64,000 nt of DNA from Tatumella sp. JGM118 (lineage in GTDB: Bacteria > Pseudomonadota > Gammaproteobacteria > Enterobacterales > Enterobacteriaceae), in the NCBI RefSeq assembly GCF_018257515.1, contig NZ_JAERJR010000001.1, positions 62,001 through 126,000 of the forward strand. Direction: 5' to 3'. Under the pieces are notes generated by a model that did no database searches, was not told the origin of the DNA, and saw nothing but the letters and a program-made list of their open reading frames with translations. Below, one piece after another: positions 6,288-12,168 of this stretch (its first letter is position 1; each line of letters opens with the position of its first letter). Both the position numbers and the translations under genes were made by a program.

Positions 6288-6893
6288 ATGCAGATCGATT
6301 CCCGAAGAGATTTTTTACGTTTAATGACTCAGATCGCCGTCAGTTCGCCGTTGATCCTTGCGGCGGCGGCACGGGGTGAGTCTGCCTCGCCGGTGGCACC
6401 GCAACATTTTATGTTGTCTGCTAATGGCTGGGTACCGAATAACCCGCACCTGCCGGTGCTTCTCTACCGCCAGGCACTCTCGCTGTCCGGTGATGTGACA
6501 CAGCAATCAGAACAGGCGCTGACGCACAATGGCTGGCCGCCGCAGTGGGTTGCCGGGGTATTTAACTTCCATCATTACCACAGCACTGCCCATGAGGTTT
6601 TAGGCTTTGTCGGCGGGGAGGCCCGGCTGATGCTGGGTGGCCCGGGCGGGAAGACCGTGACGGTTCATGCCGGGGATGTAGCCCTGCTACCCGCCGGCAC
6701 CGGACATTGCAATTTAGGCAGCAGTGACGATTTTCTGGTGATCGGGGCCTATCCGCCGGACCAGCACTGGGATATCTGTCGCTCGGCCCCCACAGCCGCG
6801 ATGCGTCAGCGGATAGCCACCTTACCTTACCCTCATCAGGACCCGGTCAGTGGTCAGCCACAACCCTTAATGTCACTCTGGCAACAGGCATAA
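6288..6893 (+). CDS. Exported cupin-domain protein with Tat-like signal
   Basis: A 201-residue protein. The start '[10 protein letters not shown]' followed by a hydrophobic, Ala-rich stretch is a twin-arginine signal, so export to the periplasm is predicted. The rest is a small cupin: '[19 protein letters not shown]' carries the His/Glu metal-binding set and '[17 protein letters not shown]' the second cupin motif with its His. Similar proteins are annotated only as cupin-domain proteins; no reaction can be assigned. A strong purine-rich ribosome site (GGGGGGAAAAA) precedes ATG 6288. The next gene starts 22 bases downstream and is also predicted to be exported, suggesting a two-gene operon. 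Confidence 0.8.
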
Positions 6894-6915
6894 TGTCATC
6901 TTCACAGGAGGTCCC

Positions 6916-7614
6916 GTGTCAGGAATTAAATCATTACTGAGTGCAGGTCTGTTAGTCATTGCCTCTCTGGCCACCGCCCGGGCGGCGTCGTTACCGTCCA
7001 TTGGTATTATCGGTGCGGGGCAAATGGGCGGTACGCTCGCCACACTCTGGAGTAAAGCCGGCTATCCGGTGATCCTCAGTTCGCGTCATCCGGAGGCTCT
7101 GAAACAGCAGGTGGCTGAACTGGGGCATCAGGCCAGTGCGGCGAGTGTCGGACAGACGGCACAGCAAGCCAGCATCATCGTCCTGGCCGTCCCGTACGGC
7201 GCGTTACCTTCGCTGGCTAAGAGTATTGGTGCCAGTGTGAAGGGTAAAGTTGTGCTGGACGTCAGCAACCCTTATCCCGGCAGGGATGGGCAGGTAGCCG
7301 ACGATGCGCTTAAAGAGGGGGTAGGGCGTTACAGTGCCGGATTATTCCCCGGGGCGCATCTGGTGCGTGGCTTTAACTCGGTAGCGGCCTATACCCTCAG
7401 TTCAGAGGCACACCGCTCAGGCGCGAAACTCGCCATCCCGCTGGCAGGAGATGATAAACAGGCGCTGAATACCGTCTCACAGCTGGTGGAAAAAGCCGGT
7501 TTTGACCCGGTCATCGCAGGCAATCTGGATAAAGCGCGTTTGTTCCAGCCAGGCAGCAGTCTGTTTTTAAGTAATCTCACTCAGCAGCAACTGAAACAGC
7601 AGCTGACGCAATAG
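6916..7614 (+). CDS. Exported NAD(P)-binding Rossmann protein, F420-reductase/NADP-oxidoreductase-like
   Basis: A 232-residue protein that begins with a clear Sec-type signal peptide (hydrophobic 'AGLLVIASLATARA', likely cleavage after ARA). It continues with a dinucleotide-binding fold: 'IGIIGAGQMGGTLA' with GxGxxG, then 'SSRHPE', the type of segment that binds the NADP phosphate. The family (F420_oxidored-like) is normally cytoplasmic, so the signal peptide is odd. GTG 6916 follows AGGAGG at 6906-6911. It is probably co-transcribed with the cupin gene. The hairpin CCCCC-GTTAC-GGGGG at 7627-7641 may end the unit. The substrate is unknown. Confidence 0.8.
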   Translation: MSGIKSLLSAGLLVIASLATARAASLPSIGIIGAGQMGGTLATLWSKAGYPVILSSRHPEALKQQVAELGHQASAASVGQTAQQASIIVLAVPYGALPSLAKSIGASVKGKVVLDVSNPYPGRDGQVADDALKEGVGRYSAGLFPGAHLVRGFNSVAAYTLSSEAHRSGAKLAIPLAGDDKQALNTVSQLVEKAGFDPVIAGNLDKARLFQPGSSLFLSNLTQQQLKQQLTQ

Positions 7615-7897: not shown

Positions 7898-8452
7898 ATG
7901 ACAACCGATACCTTTCTTCCTCTGACTGAACTTGGGCCACGTATCTGTATTTTAGGGCCGTCAAATAGCGGGAAATCCACGTTAGCCCTCGCGCTGGCAG
8001 AAAAAACAGCCGCACCGGTCATACATCTGGATCAGCTGTTTCACCGGCCGGGAACCCGCTGGCAGGAGCGTCCTGAAGCGGAGTTTTTAGCGCTGCATGA
8101 GGCCGCAATACAGCAGGAATGCTGGGTAATGGAGGGAAATTATACCCGTTATCTTGAAGCCCGGCTCGCGCGGGCAACCGGACTGATTATGTTGGATATT
8201 TCCATGCCGGTCATGCTCAGACGCTATTTTTACCGGACGCTGATACAAAAGGATCGTGCGGGGAATGTCCTGCCCGCAGGGCTGCGGGACAGGCTGTCAA
8301 AAGAGATGCTGAAATATCTGCTGGTTGTGACGCCAGGCAAGAGGGTACAAAACCGCACCCTCTATCTGAATTGTTCGCTACCTAAAGTTTACCTCGCCTC
8401 ACCGGCGCAAACCGCAGCCTGCCGGCAACAATGGCAGCTGACGAGGGGGTAA
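7898..8452 (+). CDS. Small P-loop ATPase, adenylate kinase-like
   Basis: A 184-residue cytoplasmic protein with a Walker A motif 'GPSNSGKST' at about residues 18-26, followed by 'VIHLDQLFHRPG' and 'WVMEGNYTR'. This pattern is typical of the AAA_17/FlaR-like ('DNA topology modulation') group of small kinases. No substrate is assigned. No strong ribosome site precedes ATG 7898. It stands alone, with 283 bases to the upstream gene and a convergent cytochrome gene downstream separated by a strong hairpin. Confidence 0.75.
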   Translation: MTTDTFLPLTELGPRICILGPSNSGKSTLALALAEKTAAPVIHLDQLFHRPGTRWQERPEAEFLALHEAAIQQECWVMEGNYTRYLEARLARATGLIMLDISMPVMLRRYFYRTLIQKDRAGNVLPAGLRDRLSKEMLKYLLVVTPGKRVQNRTLYLNCSLPKVYLASPAQTAACRQQWQLTRG

Positions 8453-8490: not shown

Positions 8491-9915
8491 CTAGTGGCGG
8501 CGGTTACGCCGTAATCGTAAGCCGATGATCAGCAGAATAACGATCACCAGAACGACGGCAATGGCAGGGACCATATAAGGCTGCAATGAGACCAGCGCAG
8601 GCGGATGCCCCCCTTTACGAACCCAGGCGACATCACCGGCCTGAACGGTGACCGAAGGATTACCAAAGTTATGCAGGACATAGTTACTGATGTCGGCGAC
8701 CTGCTGATCGGTCAGGTGATCCACATAAGAAGAGGTAGAGCCGAAGCCCGGCATCAATACCTCATGACCGTTGGTCGTCCGCTGAACACCGTAAAGGATC
8801 GTTGCGATCAGGTTTTGCGGATGGATCATGCCGGTCGCCGTATTATGGAATAATGACGGGTAAGCCTGATTCTGACTACCGGCACCGTCCGGCTGGTGGC
8901 AGCTGGCACAGTTACCACTGAACAGGGCTGCGCCGGAGATCACCGAATTGCGGGCGTTGTAGGGCGCCTTGCCGCGGACTTCATTGTCCACGTTGACTGC
9001 CGTGGAACCATAGCTGTAGGCGGCCTGCGTCTCACCCTCTGTGCGTATCGGGGGTGTCTGTTTCAGGTAGGTGGCGATAGCATGCAGATCGCTGTCCGGC
9101 AGGTATTGCAGGCTGTGTTCCACTGCTTCAGCCATCCCCCCTGCGGCCTGGTTTTTTCCGGCAACACGTCCGGTCTTCAGGTATTGCACGATCTCGTCAT
9201 CGCTCCAGCCCCCGATCCCGCTGATTTTATCGGAGGTGATATTCGGCGCATACCAGCTGCCCAGGGGGGCACCGGCCAGAGGCTGGCTGCTGACCTCATT
9301 CATCATAAAACCGCGTGGCGTATGGCAGGTATCACAGTGCGCCAGGCCATTCACCAGATAGTTACCACGATTCCATTCCGCGCTCTTTTGCGGATCTGTC
9401 TGGTAATCTTTGTGGTCGGCATACAGCAGGTTCCAGATTTTCATACTGAAACGGATACTGAACGGAAAAGCCAGGGCTGTCGGGGTGTTTTTCTGGTCGA
9501 CGGGTTTTACGCCATGCATAAAGTAGTAATACAGGGCATGTAAATCACTGTCGGTCATCATCCGGTAAGAGGTATAAGGCATGGCGGGATAAAGTTGTGC
9601 CCCATCGGCACGGACACCGTGTCTGACCGCATCTGAGAATTGCGCCTCGGTATAATGGCCGATCCCGGTGACAACATCCGGAGTAATGTTGGTGGAGTAG
9701 ATGGCCCCCATCGGTGAGGCGATGGCATACCCCCCGCTGAAGGCGGTTTTACTGCCGGGGGCGGTATGACAGGCCTGACAGTCTGAGGCGGTAGCCACCT
9801 GCTGCCCCTGAGTTAACAGTGACTGGTCAATATCGGCCGCGCTGGCTGTCATCAGATGGCATCCGGCATACACTAAGGCCAGCGCACTCATTTTGACGGA
9901 GAAGGAACGTTTCAT
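8491..9915 (-). CDS. Membrane-bound dehydrogenase, triheme cytochrome c subunit
   Basis: A 474-residue exported protein with an N-terminal signal peptide (ending near 'TASA') and three CxxCH heme sites: CQACH (residues 46-50), CDTCH (about 195) and CASCH (about 335). A C-terminal membrane anchor at about residues 445-465 is followed by Arg residues. This is the build of the cytochrome subunit of FAD-dependent gluconate, 2-ketogluconate, sorbitol or alcohol dehydrogenases, which passes electrons from the flavoprotein to ubiquinone. Its ATG overlaps the stop of the flavoprotein gene (ATGA), indicating translational coupling. Confidence 0.92.
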   Translation of the reverse strand: MKRSFSVKMSALALVYAGCHLMTASAADIDQSLLTQGQQVATASDCQACHTAPGSKTAFSGGYAIASPMGAIYSTNITPDVVTGIGHYTEAQFSDAVRHGVRADGAQLYPAMPYTSYRMMTDSDLHALYYYFMHGVKPVDQKNTPTALAFPFSIRFSMKIWNLLYADHKDYQTDPQKSAEWNRGNYLVNGLAHCDTCHTPRGFMMNEVSSQPLAGAPLGSWYAPNITSDKISGIGGWSDDEIVQYLKTGRVAGKNQAAGGMAEAVEHSLQYLPDSDLHAIATYLKQTPPIRTEGETQAAYSYGSTAVNVDNEVRGKAPYNARNSVISGAALFSGNCASCHQPDGAGSQNQAYPSLFHNTATGMIHPQNLIATILYGVQRTTNGHEVLMPGFGSTSSYVDHLTDQQVADISNYVLHNFGNPSVTVQAGDVAWVRKGGHPPALVSLQPYMVPAIAVVLVIVILLIIGLRLRRNRRH

Positions 9916-11567
9916 GCGAACTCCTTCATGCGCAGAGAGATATCATGAGCGGCCTTCAGACCTAATGCGGCCATACTCAGGGTACTGTTCACCACACTGG
10001 CTGACGGGATCGCACCGCCGCCTGGCAGCCATAAATTCTCATGGTCAAAGGTACGGCAGTTACCATCCACCACCGCGTCTTTGGCCGATTTACCCATAAT
10101 GGTTCCGCCCATAATATGGTTATTCGCATTCAGACTGGTGGTGATATTGAACTCTTTACCATTAAACAGTGAACCGATGTGTTCTAACTGCTCATGGGCT
10201 GCCGTCGCGCCTTTACGCACATAATCGCCGACGTCGTAATGGATATCCGGGCAGGCGAGGCCATGCGGATCGTTACGTGTCTTGCTGAGTGTCAGACGGT
10301 TTTCAGGGTCCGGCAGCGGCTCCAGACTGATTGAGATATCTACCCCGTGGATAGAGCGGTAACGAATTTCTTCATCCAGCGCTTTACCAACCAGACCTTT
10401 CGCCAGAGCCTGTTTGGTGGCGGGCACCACGCGGGAAATATTATTCAGGATCATTTTGTTAGCCGAATACTGGCTGCGGAAATCGCCATCACGCGGACCG
10501 ACCATACAACTGCTCTGAGCAGGCCCACGGCCCAGCCATACCGGTTCTTCTGTCAGGAAGCTGCAGTGAAAACCGGAGTGGTCCATCATGTTACGTCCCA
10601 CCATATCCGAGCTGTTAGCAATCCCGTTCGGGTTGGCTTTATTGGCGGCCAGCAGTAGCAGGCGTGGGGTTTCTATACCGTTACAGGCCAGTGCGAAGGC
10701 TTTCCCTGTCGCTTTGTGTGATGCGCCCTGGTTATCGCGCCAGTGGACGGCCGTCACACGGTTATTGCCATCGGTATCTATCTTATACACCACCGATTCA
10801 GCCAGAACGACAGCGCCTTTCTGCTCGGCACGTTCAATATGGTGGATACCGTTATACATCGCACCGATAGGGCAGATAGGCTGGCAGTTGTTATTACCAC
10901 AGCAGACCGGTCGGCCTTCCCACGGGCGGGTGCTGCGTCCCTGAGGGATCGGCACCAGGTTATAACCGTGCGGGTTTACGACGCTGGCGAAATAGGCATC
11001 CCCGTGGGCGAAGGGGACCATTTCCATCGGATAAGGTTTGCTGCGCTCACGCGGGGACTGCATCGCCGGATCGCTGGGGCCGGCCACACCAATCTCATAC
11101 TCTGCCTCACAGTACCAGGGTTCCATTTCATCATACGTTATCGCCCAGTCGCGCCCGACGCCATACTTACTCTGCATCACGAAATCGCTGGGCATATGGC
11201 GCCAGCATGATGCAGCCCAGTGCCAGGTGGTACCGCCGACGGTCCGCAGGTAGCCCTGCTGGAAGCTACCGGCACTCGGCCCGGTGACATTGACATAATT
11301 GTTCGGCGGGAAGTAGAGCGGAGCCGGGGCCAGCGGAGACTGAGGATACAGCCCCTGAAAATCCGAACCTGCACGGTTAGCAAATGGCATATTTCGCCAG
11401 TTTTCAACCGCCTGCGCACGGCTAATCCGTAAACCGGCTTCCAGTACCAGTACCGAGTATCCCTGGCTGACTAATCTGTCTGCAATCATTCCGCCAACAA
11501 TACCGGAGCCCACAATCACAATATCTGCGGAGGCATCGCCGCCGGCAGTAAATTCAGGTTTTTTCAT
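9912..11567 (-). CDS. Membrane-bound dehydrogenase, GMC-family FAD flavoprotein subunit
   Basis: A 551-residue catalytic subunit. The N-terminal 'VIVGSGIVGGMIA' is the GxGxxG FAD-binding motif. 'GGTTWHWAASCWR' and the C-terminal 'NHIMGGTIMG ... LWLPGGGAIPSAS' are typical of the GMC oxidoreductase group of gluconate/2-ketogluconate/sorbitol dehydrogenases. A Cys-rich segment ('PVCCGNNNCQPICPIGAM', about residues 225-242) matches the 3Fe-4S cluster region found in related FAD-dependent dehydrogenases. No signal peptide is present; export is probably by piggy-back on the Tat signal of the small subunit. The protein should face the periplasm and oxidise a sugar or sugar acid; gluconate to 2-ketogluconate is the likely reaction by family, not proven. 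Confidence 0.9.
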   Translation of the reverse strand: MKKPEFTAGGDASADIVIVGSGIVGGMIADRLVSQGYSVLVLEAGLRISRAQAVENWRNMPFANRAGSDFQGLYPQSPLAPAPLYFPPNNYVNVTGPSAGSFQQGYLRTVGGTTWHWAASCWRHMPSDFVMQSKYGVGRDWAITYDEMEPWYCEAEYEIGVAGPSDPAMQSPRERSKPYPMEMVPFAHGDAYFASVVNPHGYNLVPIPQGRSTRPWEGRPVCCGNNNCQPICPIGAMYNGIHHIERAEQKGAVVLAESVVYKIDTDGNNRVTAVHWRDNQGASHKATGKAFALACNGIETPRLLLLAANKANPNGIANSSDMVGRNMMDHSGFHCSFLTEEPVWLGRGPAQSSCMVGPRDGDFRSQYSANKMILNNISRVVPATKQALAKGLVGKALDEEIRYRSIHGVDISISLEPLPDPENRLTLSKTRNDPHGLACPDIHYDVGDYVRKGATAAHEQLEHIGSLFNGKEFNITTSLNANNHIMGGTIMGKSAKDAVVDGNCRTFDHENLWLPGGGAIPSASVVNSTLSMAALGLKAAHDISLRMKEFA

Positions 11568-11598
11568 CGTATGCGTTCTTTTTTTTATCAGGGTGCAA

Positions 11599-12168
11599 TT
11601 ACAGGTTATCGATTAATTCAGGATCAAGCGGGTCCGGTACCGGGGCAGTCCACCATAGCGGGCCATTGCCGCAATAGGTGGGAACCACCAGTCCGTCGCT
11701 GACCGTGGCATACATCAGGGCGTCTTTATAAGCGACCAGGGTGCCCTTGTAGTCATCGCCGATAGTGCCGGTGTACCAGGCAGTGATAATGTCCTGCAGA
11801 AAATTGCCCAACCCGGCGGCGACCGCTTGCTGTTTAAAGTCAGCGGCCGACATTGGAGACTGGATCACTGCGGCCAGACGGGCAATTTTGCTGTTAAATT
11901 GCGGGTGTCGCTGACTGAAAGCCCCCAGAAAACGTGAAGCCAGTTGGGGACTGATATGCTTATGTTCAGTGATAGTTTGCGACACGCGGATAAAATCCCG
12001 CGCCGCGTCGCGGCCATGAATGACGCTATCGGCGAAACTCTGTAATGGCAGTGAGGCAGCAAGGCCGGCGGCAGAAATAATCAGTGCAGAACGGAGAAAC
12101 TCCCTCCTGCTGGAACCGGTTCCAATCCCGGATATATCAGACGACAATGGCTCAAAATTTTGCTTCAT
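11599..12168 (-). CDS. Membrane-bound dehydrogenase, small (gamma) subunit with Tat signal
   Basis: A 189-residue protein with the twin-arginine motif 'SSRREFLRSA' and a hydrophobic stretch ending near 'SFA', a Tat signal. The remainder ('GLGNFLQDIITAWYTGTIGD ...') resembles the small subunit of FAD-dependent sorbitol/gluconate dehydrogenases (gluconate 2-dehydrogenase subunit 3-like). It is needed for export and stability of the flavoprotein. It is the first gene of the three-gene minus-strand operon, ending 31 bases before the flavoprotein start, so the operon promoter should lie upstream of 12168. Confidence 0.88.
   Translation of the reverse strand: MKQNFEPLSSDISGIGTGSSRREFLRSALIISAAGLAASLPLQSFADSVIHGRDAARDFIRVSQTITEHKHISPQLASRFLGAFSQRHPQFNSKIARLAAVIQSPMSAADFKQQAVAAGLGNFLQDIITAWYTGTIGDDYKGTLVAYKDALMYATVSDGLVVPTYCGNGPLWWTAPVPDPLDPELIDNL

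Follow-up and report, generated by a model that had tools for sequence, protein, structure and literature searches.

A leadered cupin and Rossmann gene pair in Tatumella, and the association of its Rossmann clade with an NTT-like transporter

The gene pair and its surroundings

The window, i.e. the whole stretch of 64,000 nucleotides of Tatumella sp. JGM118 that was analysed, contains two neighbouring genes for proteins with export-type leaders, a cupin and a Rossmann protein, with the following features.

6288 to 6893, plus strand: cupin protein, 201 aa, ATG start, Tat-type leader (sequence; Cupin_2; genus copies)
6303 to 6320, plus strand: twin-arginine core RRDFLR of the cupin leader, within the motif SRRDFLR (sequence, alignment)
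6573 to 6707, plus strand: cupin metal-site motifs HxH(x4)E ... H (sequence, alignment)
6906 to 6911, plus strand: Shine-Dalgarno AGGAGG, four bases ahead of the GTG at 6916 (sequence)
6916 to 7614, plus strand: FNO-like Rossmann protein (PF03807), 232 aa, GTG start (sequence, Pfam match, model)
6916 to 6984, plus strand: Sec-type leader of the Rossmann protein, 23 residues ending ARA (sequence; leader kept in relatives)
7012 to 7029, plus strand: GxGxxG dinucleotide-binding loop, GAGQMG (sequence, alignment)
7078 to 7092, plus strand: SSRHP turn after strand 2, aligned to SRNP of STEAP3 (alignment)

The GTG start of the Rossmann gene lies 22 bases past the cupin stop. An earlier reading of the same DNA from its letters (further, the sequence-only reading) described here a Tat cupin followed by a Rossmann protein with a Sec-type leader, and according to our analysis its reading frames, leaders and pairing all hold: 6/6 genus genomes have both genes, in the same order and with both leaders, and therefore the pair is not a product of chance.

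The cupin scores 26.5 bits (E 5.4e-6) with Cupin_2 (PF07883), just under the gathering score of 27.2, and possesses the HxH(x4)E...H pattern, which we take to be the cupin metal-site motif. Its copies in the five other genus genomes (5/5) are 80-97% identical, and the RR pair is present in 10 of the 11 aligned cupin rows, the window included, the exception being L127, which is without a leader. The adjacency of cupin and Rossmann genes was seen only in this genus, and no cupin homologue was found in the stretches around 22 leadered Rossmann genes from outside it. The suggestion that the two proteins form one small pathway is weak beyond the genus; the recurrent partners of the non-genus leadered Rossmann genes are an NTT-like transporter and exported aldo/keto reductases (AKRs).

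Homologues of the cupin occur in 263 plasmid records, 184 of them from Rhizobium or Sinorhizobium, and among the 40 plasmid matches listed many of the cupin alignments start past the leader (residue 25-41) and some at 1-14. Two genus members have, together with the transporter and an aldo/keto reductase, another Tat cupin of lower similarity (36-40% within the genus), and a Tat cupin also stands beside transporter and aldo/keto reductase on one Pantoea plasmid; these transporter-linked cupins, from the two genus members and the Pantoea plasmid, are without the motif-2 His. In two Azotobacter plasmids, like in the window, a GMC/cytochrome c dehydrogenase is encoded close to a cupin homologue. 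The cupin is probably a lineage-specific partner, being a metal enzyme or a small-molecule binder in the same compartment as the Rossmann protein.

Convergent with the pair, a membrane dehydrogenase set (cytochrome c, GMC flavoprotein and FAD-SLDH-type Tat small subunit) occupies positions 8491-12168 of the window on the minus strand, and such a set is found at the same place in G398, G394 and G396. The FAD dehydrogenase may be a partner of the pair. Between this set and the Rossmann gene lies a small kinase-like ORF (7898-8452, plus strand; AAA_18, below cut-off), whose counterpart is also present in G396, on the opposite side, and is not listed in the other four genus members.

The Rossmann protein and its leader

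The Rossmann protein matches F420_oxidored (PF03807) with 68.7 bits, the gathering cut-off being 21.6. With TIGR01915 (npdG, NADPH-dependent F420 reductase) it reaches 51.3 bits, which is below the curated equivalog cut-off of 149.8, and its identity as an F420 reductase was rejected for this reason. A sequence search of the PDB places human STEAP3 first, through its oxidoreductase domain (E 1.6e-17). The AlphaFold2 model (pLDDT 78.8, from a six-sequence alignment) has 4huj, a protein of unknown function, STEAP4 and F420:NADPH oxidoreductase as nearest fold neighbours, and several of the STEAP/FNO sequence and fold neighbours are NADP-bound.

Two motifs place the protein among the FNO/STEAP-like NADP(H)-binding proteins, namely the GxGxxG loop and the S-R turn, both present in the STEAP3 alignment and in the clade rows. 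The turn after strand 2 is, as we take it, the site for the NADP 2'-phosphate, and its S/T-R form is kept in 27/27 leadered Rossmann rows of the alignment. Judged by its sequence, the protein likely binds NADP(H). In the usual view there is no free NAD(P)H in the periplasm, and the paradox to which the sequence-only reading drew attention is a real one: an NADP-type motif is maintained in a protein with a Sec-type leader.

The leader itself, MSGIKSLLSAGLLVIASLATARA with A as the following residue, has a single Lys, a hydrophobic core, an ARA site and no RR, and reading by eye found no Tat-type motif in the Rossmann leaders of the window and the five other genus genomes. A start-codon artefact was considered and rejected, as AGGAGG stands ahead of the GTG and the leader is conserved. 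A leader, seen as a hydrophobic and signal-like N-terminus, was read by eye on the Rossmann protein in 27/27 further clade loci, of which 5 belong to the genus and 22 lie outside it, with AxA-like sites and Tat motifs among these relatives. The leader rule of our script is a coarse one, as 717 of 5000 shuffled versions of the mature sequence pass it, so that the claim of a leader is carried by its conservation and not by a single score. The evidence for an export signal, like that for the cofactor motif, is strong at the level of sequence, and the protein is predicted to be exported.

A scan of genome contigs kept 80 loci, and only a few of them align with the greater part of the query. The tree was built from 69 rows after the removal of 5 badly cut ones, and in it the 28 leadered rows fall into one branch with support 99/100, and this branch also holds one leaderless row, L003, on a long branch of its own. 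Leaderless orthologues were what the sequence-only reading had named as refuting it; a leader is present in 27/27 of the clade loci read, and L003 is the single exception. The relatives counted as unleadered make up 46 rows, of which five are badly cut; in 26 of the 46 the closest in-frame start lies exactly 6 residues ahead of GxGxxG. The leaders, labelled by eye and with L185 ambiguous, are Tat-type in 13 and Sec-type in 15 of the 28 rows, and the tree needs several changes between Tat and Sec.

The leaderless gene of L003 occupies positions 1489-2112 of that locus, and the ORF before it resembles, by eye, a carboxymuconolactone decarboxylase.

Linkage to an NTT-like transporter

The transporter is present in the stretches around 9 of the 22 non-genus Rossmann loci, being labelled MFS in the two annotated records. 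When 7 of these transporters were scanned, models of the TLC ADP/ATP carrier or of NTP/NDP exchange were matched by 2, and the rest hit MFS_1 alone; the PF03219 (TLC) cut-off was reached by 1/7 (L109, 25.0 vs 21), and the TIGR00769 scores of 27.3 and 20.4 bits in the two transporters scanned with it are below the cut-off of 387.2. A profile built from 11 transporter proteins has, in the PDB with E up to 1, a sole match, ADP,ATP carrier protein 1 (9J3N, E 1e-11), and this suggests that the transporter is remotely related to the plastid ADP,ATP carriers (NTT).

The NTT-like gene adjoins a leadered Rossmann gene in 8 loci (L107, L109, L172-L175, L177, L178), for some of which the leader was missed by the script and called by reading. 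It is two genes away in L187, where the run is Sec-type Rossmann, Tat flavodoxin, Tat AKR, NTT-like transporter and Tat SDR.

The Rossmann and transporter searches at the phylum level, 398 genomes each and overlapping, were taken as one sample, in which a Rossmann score of 250 bits marks the leadered genes. The transporter profile is matched in 46 of these genomes, in 24 at >380 bits (the top group). A top-group gene is found in 10/10 leadered-Rossmann genomes vs 24/398 overall, and in 1/20 genomes with only lower-scoring relatives, misses being possible in these counts, as no more than 7 Rossmann or 4 transporter candidates per genome entered the first scoring. Counted by genus, the transporter is present in 6/6 leadered-Rossmann genera and in 16/213 genera overall. 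In the class sample (369 genomes), where the transporter search covered the 7 leadered-Rossmann genomes and G378, all of the 7 match the profile, 5 of them in the top group (>380 bits); all 5 top-group copies stand beside a Tat-type AKR, and 2 lower-scoring copies are without such neighbours. In three of these seven genomes (G901, G994, G887) the Rossmann gene scores 175-181 bits, less than the mark of 250, and its leader was read by eye.

Seen from the side of the transporter, a leadered AKR, SDR or Rossmann gene lies within 1.5 kb and on the same strand in 23/28 top-group loci, the adjacent SDR of L257 being leaderless by one script and leadered by another. Such a gene lies within 1.5 kb in 0/15 of the lower-group loci examined (of 26), and the division into top (28 places) and lower (26 places) groups, between 385 and 340 bits, was drawn after the neighbours had been seen. 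Fisher's test gives 1.0e-7, and 2.5e-7 without the five profile-seed loci, when 19/23 top-group loci have a leadered reductase gene; the genomes in these counts are not phylogenetically independent. No AKR, SDR or Rossmann gene is found on the same strand within 1.5 kb in 4/28 top-group loci. As for plasmids, a Tat aldo/keto reductase adjoins the NTT-like gene on the Cupriavidus metallidurans megaplasmid, and no AKR, SDR or Rossmann neighbour is listed at the plasmid NTT-like loci of Comamonadaceae OTU4NAUVB1 and Mycetohabitans. Four transporter-linked SDRs have an A-R-N turn after strand 2, presumably typical of NADP use in SDRs, the region of two more having been left unprinted by the script. 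Taken together, there is good comparative evidence for a functional linkage of the leadered Rossmann clade to the transporter.

The only NTT-like gene of the window genome (L192) stands on a contig other than that of the Rossmann gene, and the aldo/keto reductase found 1.6 kb away from it has no leader. This aldo/keto reductase matches DkgA/DkgB below cut-off. An exported AKR and an exported SDR, used as queries against the genome, found 3 and 9 weak matches, respectively. The AKR at the NTT-like gene is leaderless in five genus genomes and on one Pantoea plasmid (L192, L201, L202, L204, L205, L274), and in G397 (L203) no AKR adjoins the NTT-like gene.

Some details of these loci deserve mention for themselves. 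An ORF of 299 aa (L192, 9879-10778) lies between the transporter and the aldo/keto reductase of the window genome, the two genes being adjacent in G396 (L205). The transporter gene of G395 (L202, 6533-7898) is split over two frames, as a possible pseudogene or through a sequencing error. The Pantoea At-9b plasmid holds at L274, 2405-11230, a PQQ glucose dehydrogenase, the NTT-like gene, an aldo/keto reductase, a Tat cupin, a quinol monooxygenase, a tautomerase, an SDR and a cytochrome c.

Interpretation

We propose tentatively, with a probability of about 0.42, that the Rossmann protein is part of an extracytoplasmic NADP(H)-dependent reductase system which is fed by the NTT-like carrier. The protein would be a hydride-transfer enzyme of the FNO/STEAP type that is exported and depends on NADP(H), with which a small acceptor able to diffuse, for instance a flavin, would probably exchange the hydride. 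It would belong to an extracytoplasmic set of NADP-type proteins that comprises FNO-like members, Tat aldo/keto reductases, leadered SDRs and, once, a Tat flavodoxin. Since a Sec-type leader implies unfolded export, the Rossmann protein of the window would cross the membrane unfolded and would have to find its NADP(H) outside; the source may be the NTT-like transporter, whose gene has such enzymes as neighbours in many proteobacteria and sits apart from the pair in the window genome. Several changes between Tat and Sec leaders are what one would expect if the proteins need not bring a bound cofactor with them.

The cargo of the transporter, as well as the acceptor and the physiological role of the system, we infer. 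NADP(H) supply of this kind is made plausible by a 2017 survey, according to which free-living bacteria also have NTTs and PamNTT4 transports NAD (PMC5381601). Among the open-licence papers listed we found no report of periplasmic NADP(H) supply; a manganese-oxidising protein is described as needing NAD+ in the title of one paper (PMC6247904).

It is a further and rather doubtful, if possible, generalisation that in many proteobacteria an NTT-like carrier brings NADP(H) across the inner membrane for the use of exported reductases of the aldo/keto, short-chain and FNO-like kinds, and that the periplasm thereby has NADPH-driven chemistry of its own. A recurrent module made of a nucleotide-carrier relative and exported NADP-type enzymes would make the assumption of no free NAD(P)H directly testable; if true, it would give a role to the uncharacterised NTT-like genes of free-living bacteria and explain the Sec-type leaders on some NADP-type enzymes.

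Another solute, either a substrate or product of the enzymes or ATP/ADP, may be what the NTT-like transporter carries, and the enzymes would then keep their cofactor firmly bound and serve a pathway of detoxification or of sugar conversion in the periplasm. The remoteness of the homology to NTT agrees with this, and so do the leaderless AKR beside the transporter in enterobacteria, the below-cut-off DkgA/DkgB likeness of the one in the window genome, and the sugar- or polyol-type dehydrogenases that occur close to the pair, to one Pantoea transporter and to an Azotobacter cupin. However, the linked enzyme classes (AKR, SDR, FNO-like) differ and have no obvious common substrate, and we consider this explanation unlikely. 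What these three families have in common is NAD(P)-type cofactor use.

It may also be that NADP is loaded in the cytoplasm, exported in the bound form and recycled internally, like in glucose-fructose oxidoreductase (GFOR) of Zymomonas, while the transporter does something else; carriage of the cofactor from the cytoplasm had been one of the ways out of the paradox offered earlier. It is possible for the Tat members, as Tat-type leaders are found on most transporter-linked AKRs and on 13/28 Rossmann proteins, and GFOR gives a precedent: its export needs the RR motif and cofactor binding, according to the title of Halbig 1999 as cited in PMC7317946 and PMC6708511. The Sec-type leaders without RR, in the window genus and in others, do not easily agree with such carriage, nor does the repeated interchange of Tat and Sec, and the linkage to the transporter is left unexplained, all of which makes this account, to our mind, quite improbable.

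It appears very unlikely that the leader stays uncleaved and anchors a Rossmann domain that works at the membrane: a helix is predicted, with low confidence, at residues 4-21, but an ARA-type site follows it, AxA-like sites and Tat motifs are found in the relatives, and with a Lys in front of the helix the domain would in any case come to lie outside. An anchor that faces the cytoplasm was rejected.

We give hardly any credence to the view of an ordinary exported pair of unrelated small proteins with a linkage from shared ancestry and horizontal transfer of gene islands, for which it speaks that 5/10 leadered-Rossmann genomes of the phylum sample are from one genus, g185, and that the samples are not phylogenetically independent, as the linkage recurs over several families and with two other enzyme classes and stands at 6/6 by genus.

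Comparison with known systems

Among the known systems that may be compared with the proposed NADP(H)-fed reductase system, the NTT/TLC ADP,ATP carriers are represented by 9J3N, which the profile of the linked transporter matches. The likeness is nevertheless remote and mostly below the family cut-offs.

FNO enzymes (F420H2:NADP oxidoreductases) presumably have no leader, unlike the Rossmann protein of the window. The fold, the GxGxxG loop and the NADP-type S-R turn are common to the two (e.g. FNO structures 1JAX and 5N2I).

The oxidoreductase domain of the STEAP metalloreductases (2VNS, 2YJZ, 6HCY) resembles the Rossmann protein both in sequence, being its best PDB match, and in fold. Excerpts of one report describe this domain as cytoplasmic and, for STEAP4, a passage of electrons from NADPH to a flavin that may diffuse (PMC6194020). 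STEAP proteins combine a haem membrane domain with the cytoplasmic oxidoreductase domain, whereas the Rossmann protein has a leader and is without the C-terminal six-helix haem domain of the STEAP type, its 232 aa being mostly filled by the Rossmann match.

The glucose-fructose oxidoreductase of Zymomonas belongs, as we assume, to another family than the Rossmann protein. By the title of Halbig 1999 it is an exported enzyme that contains NADP; it goes by Tat, whereas the Rossmann protein of the window has a Sec-type leader.
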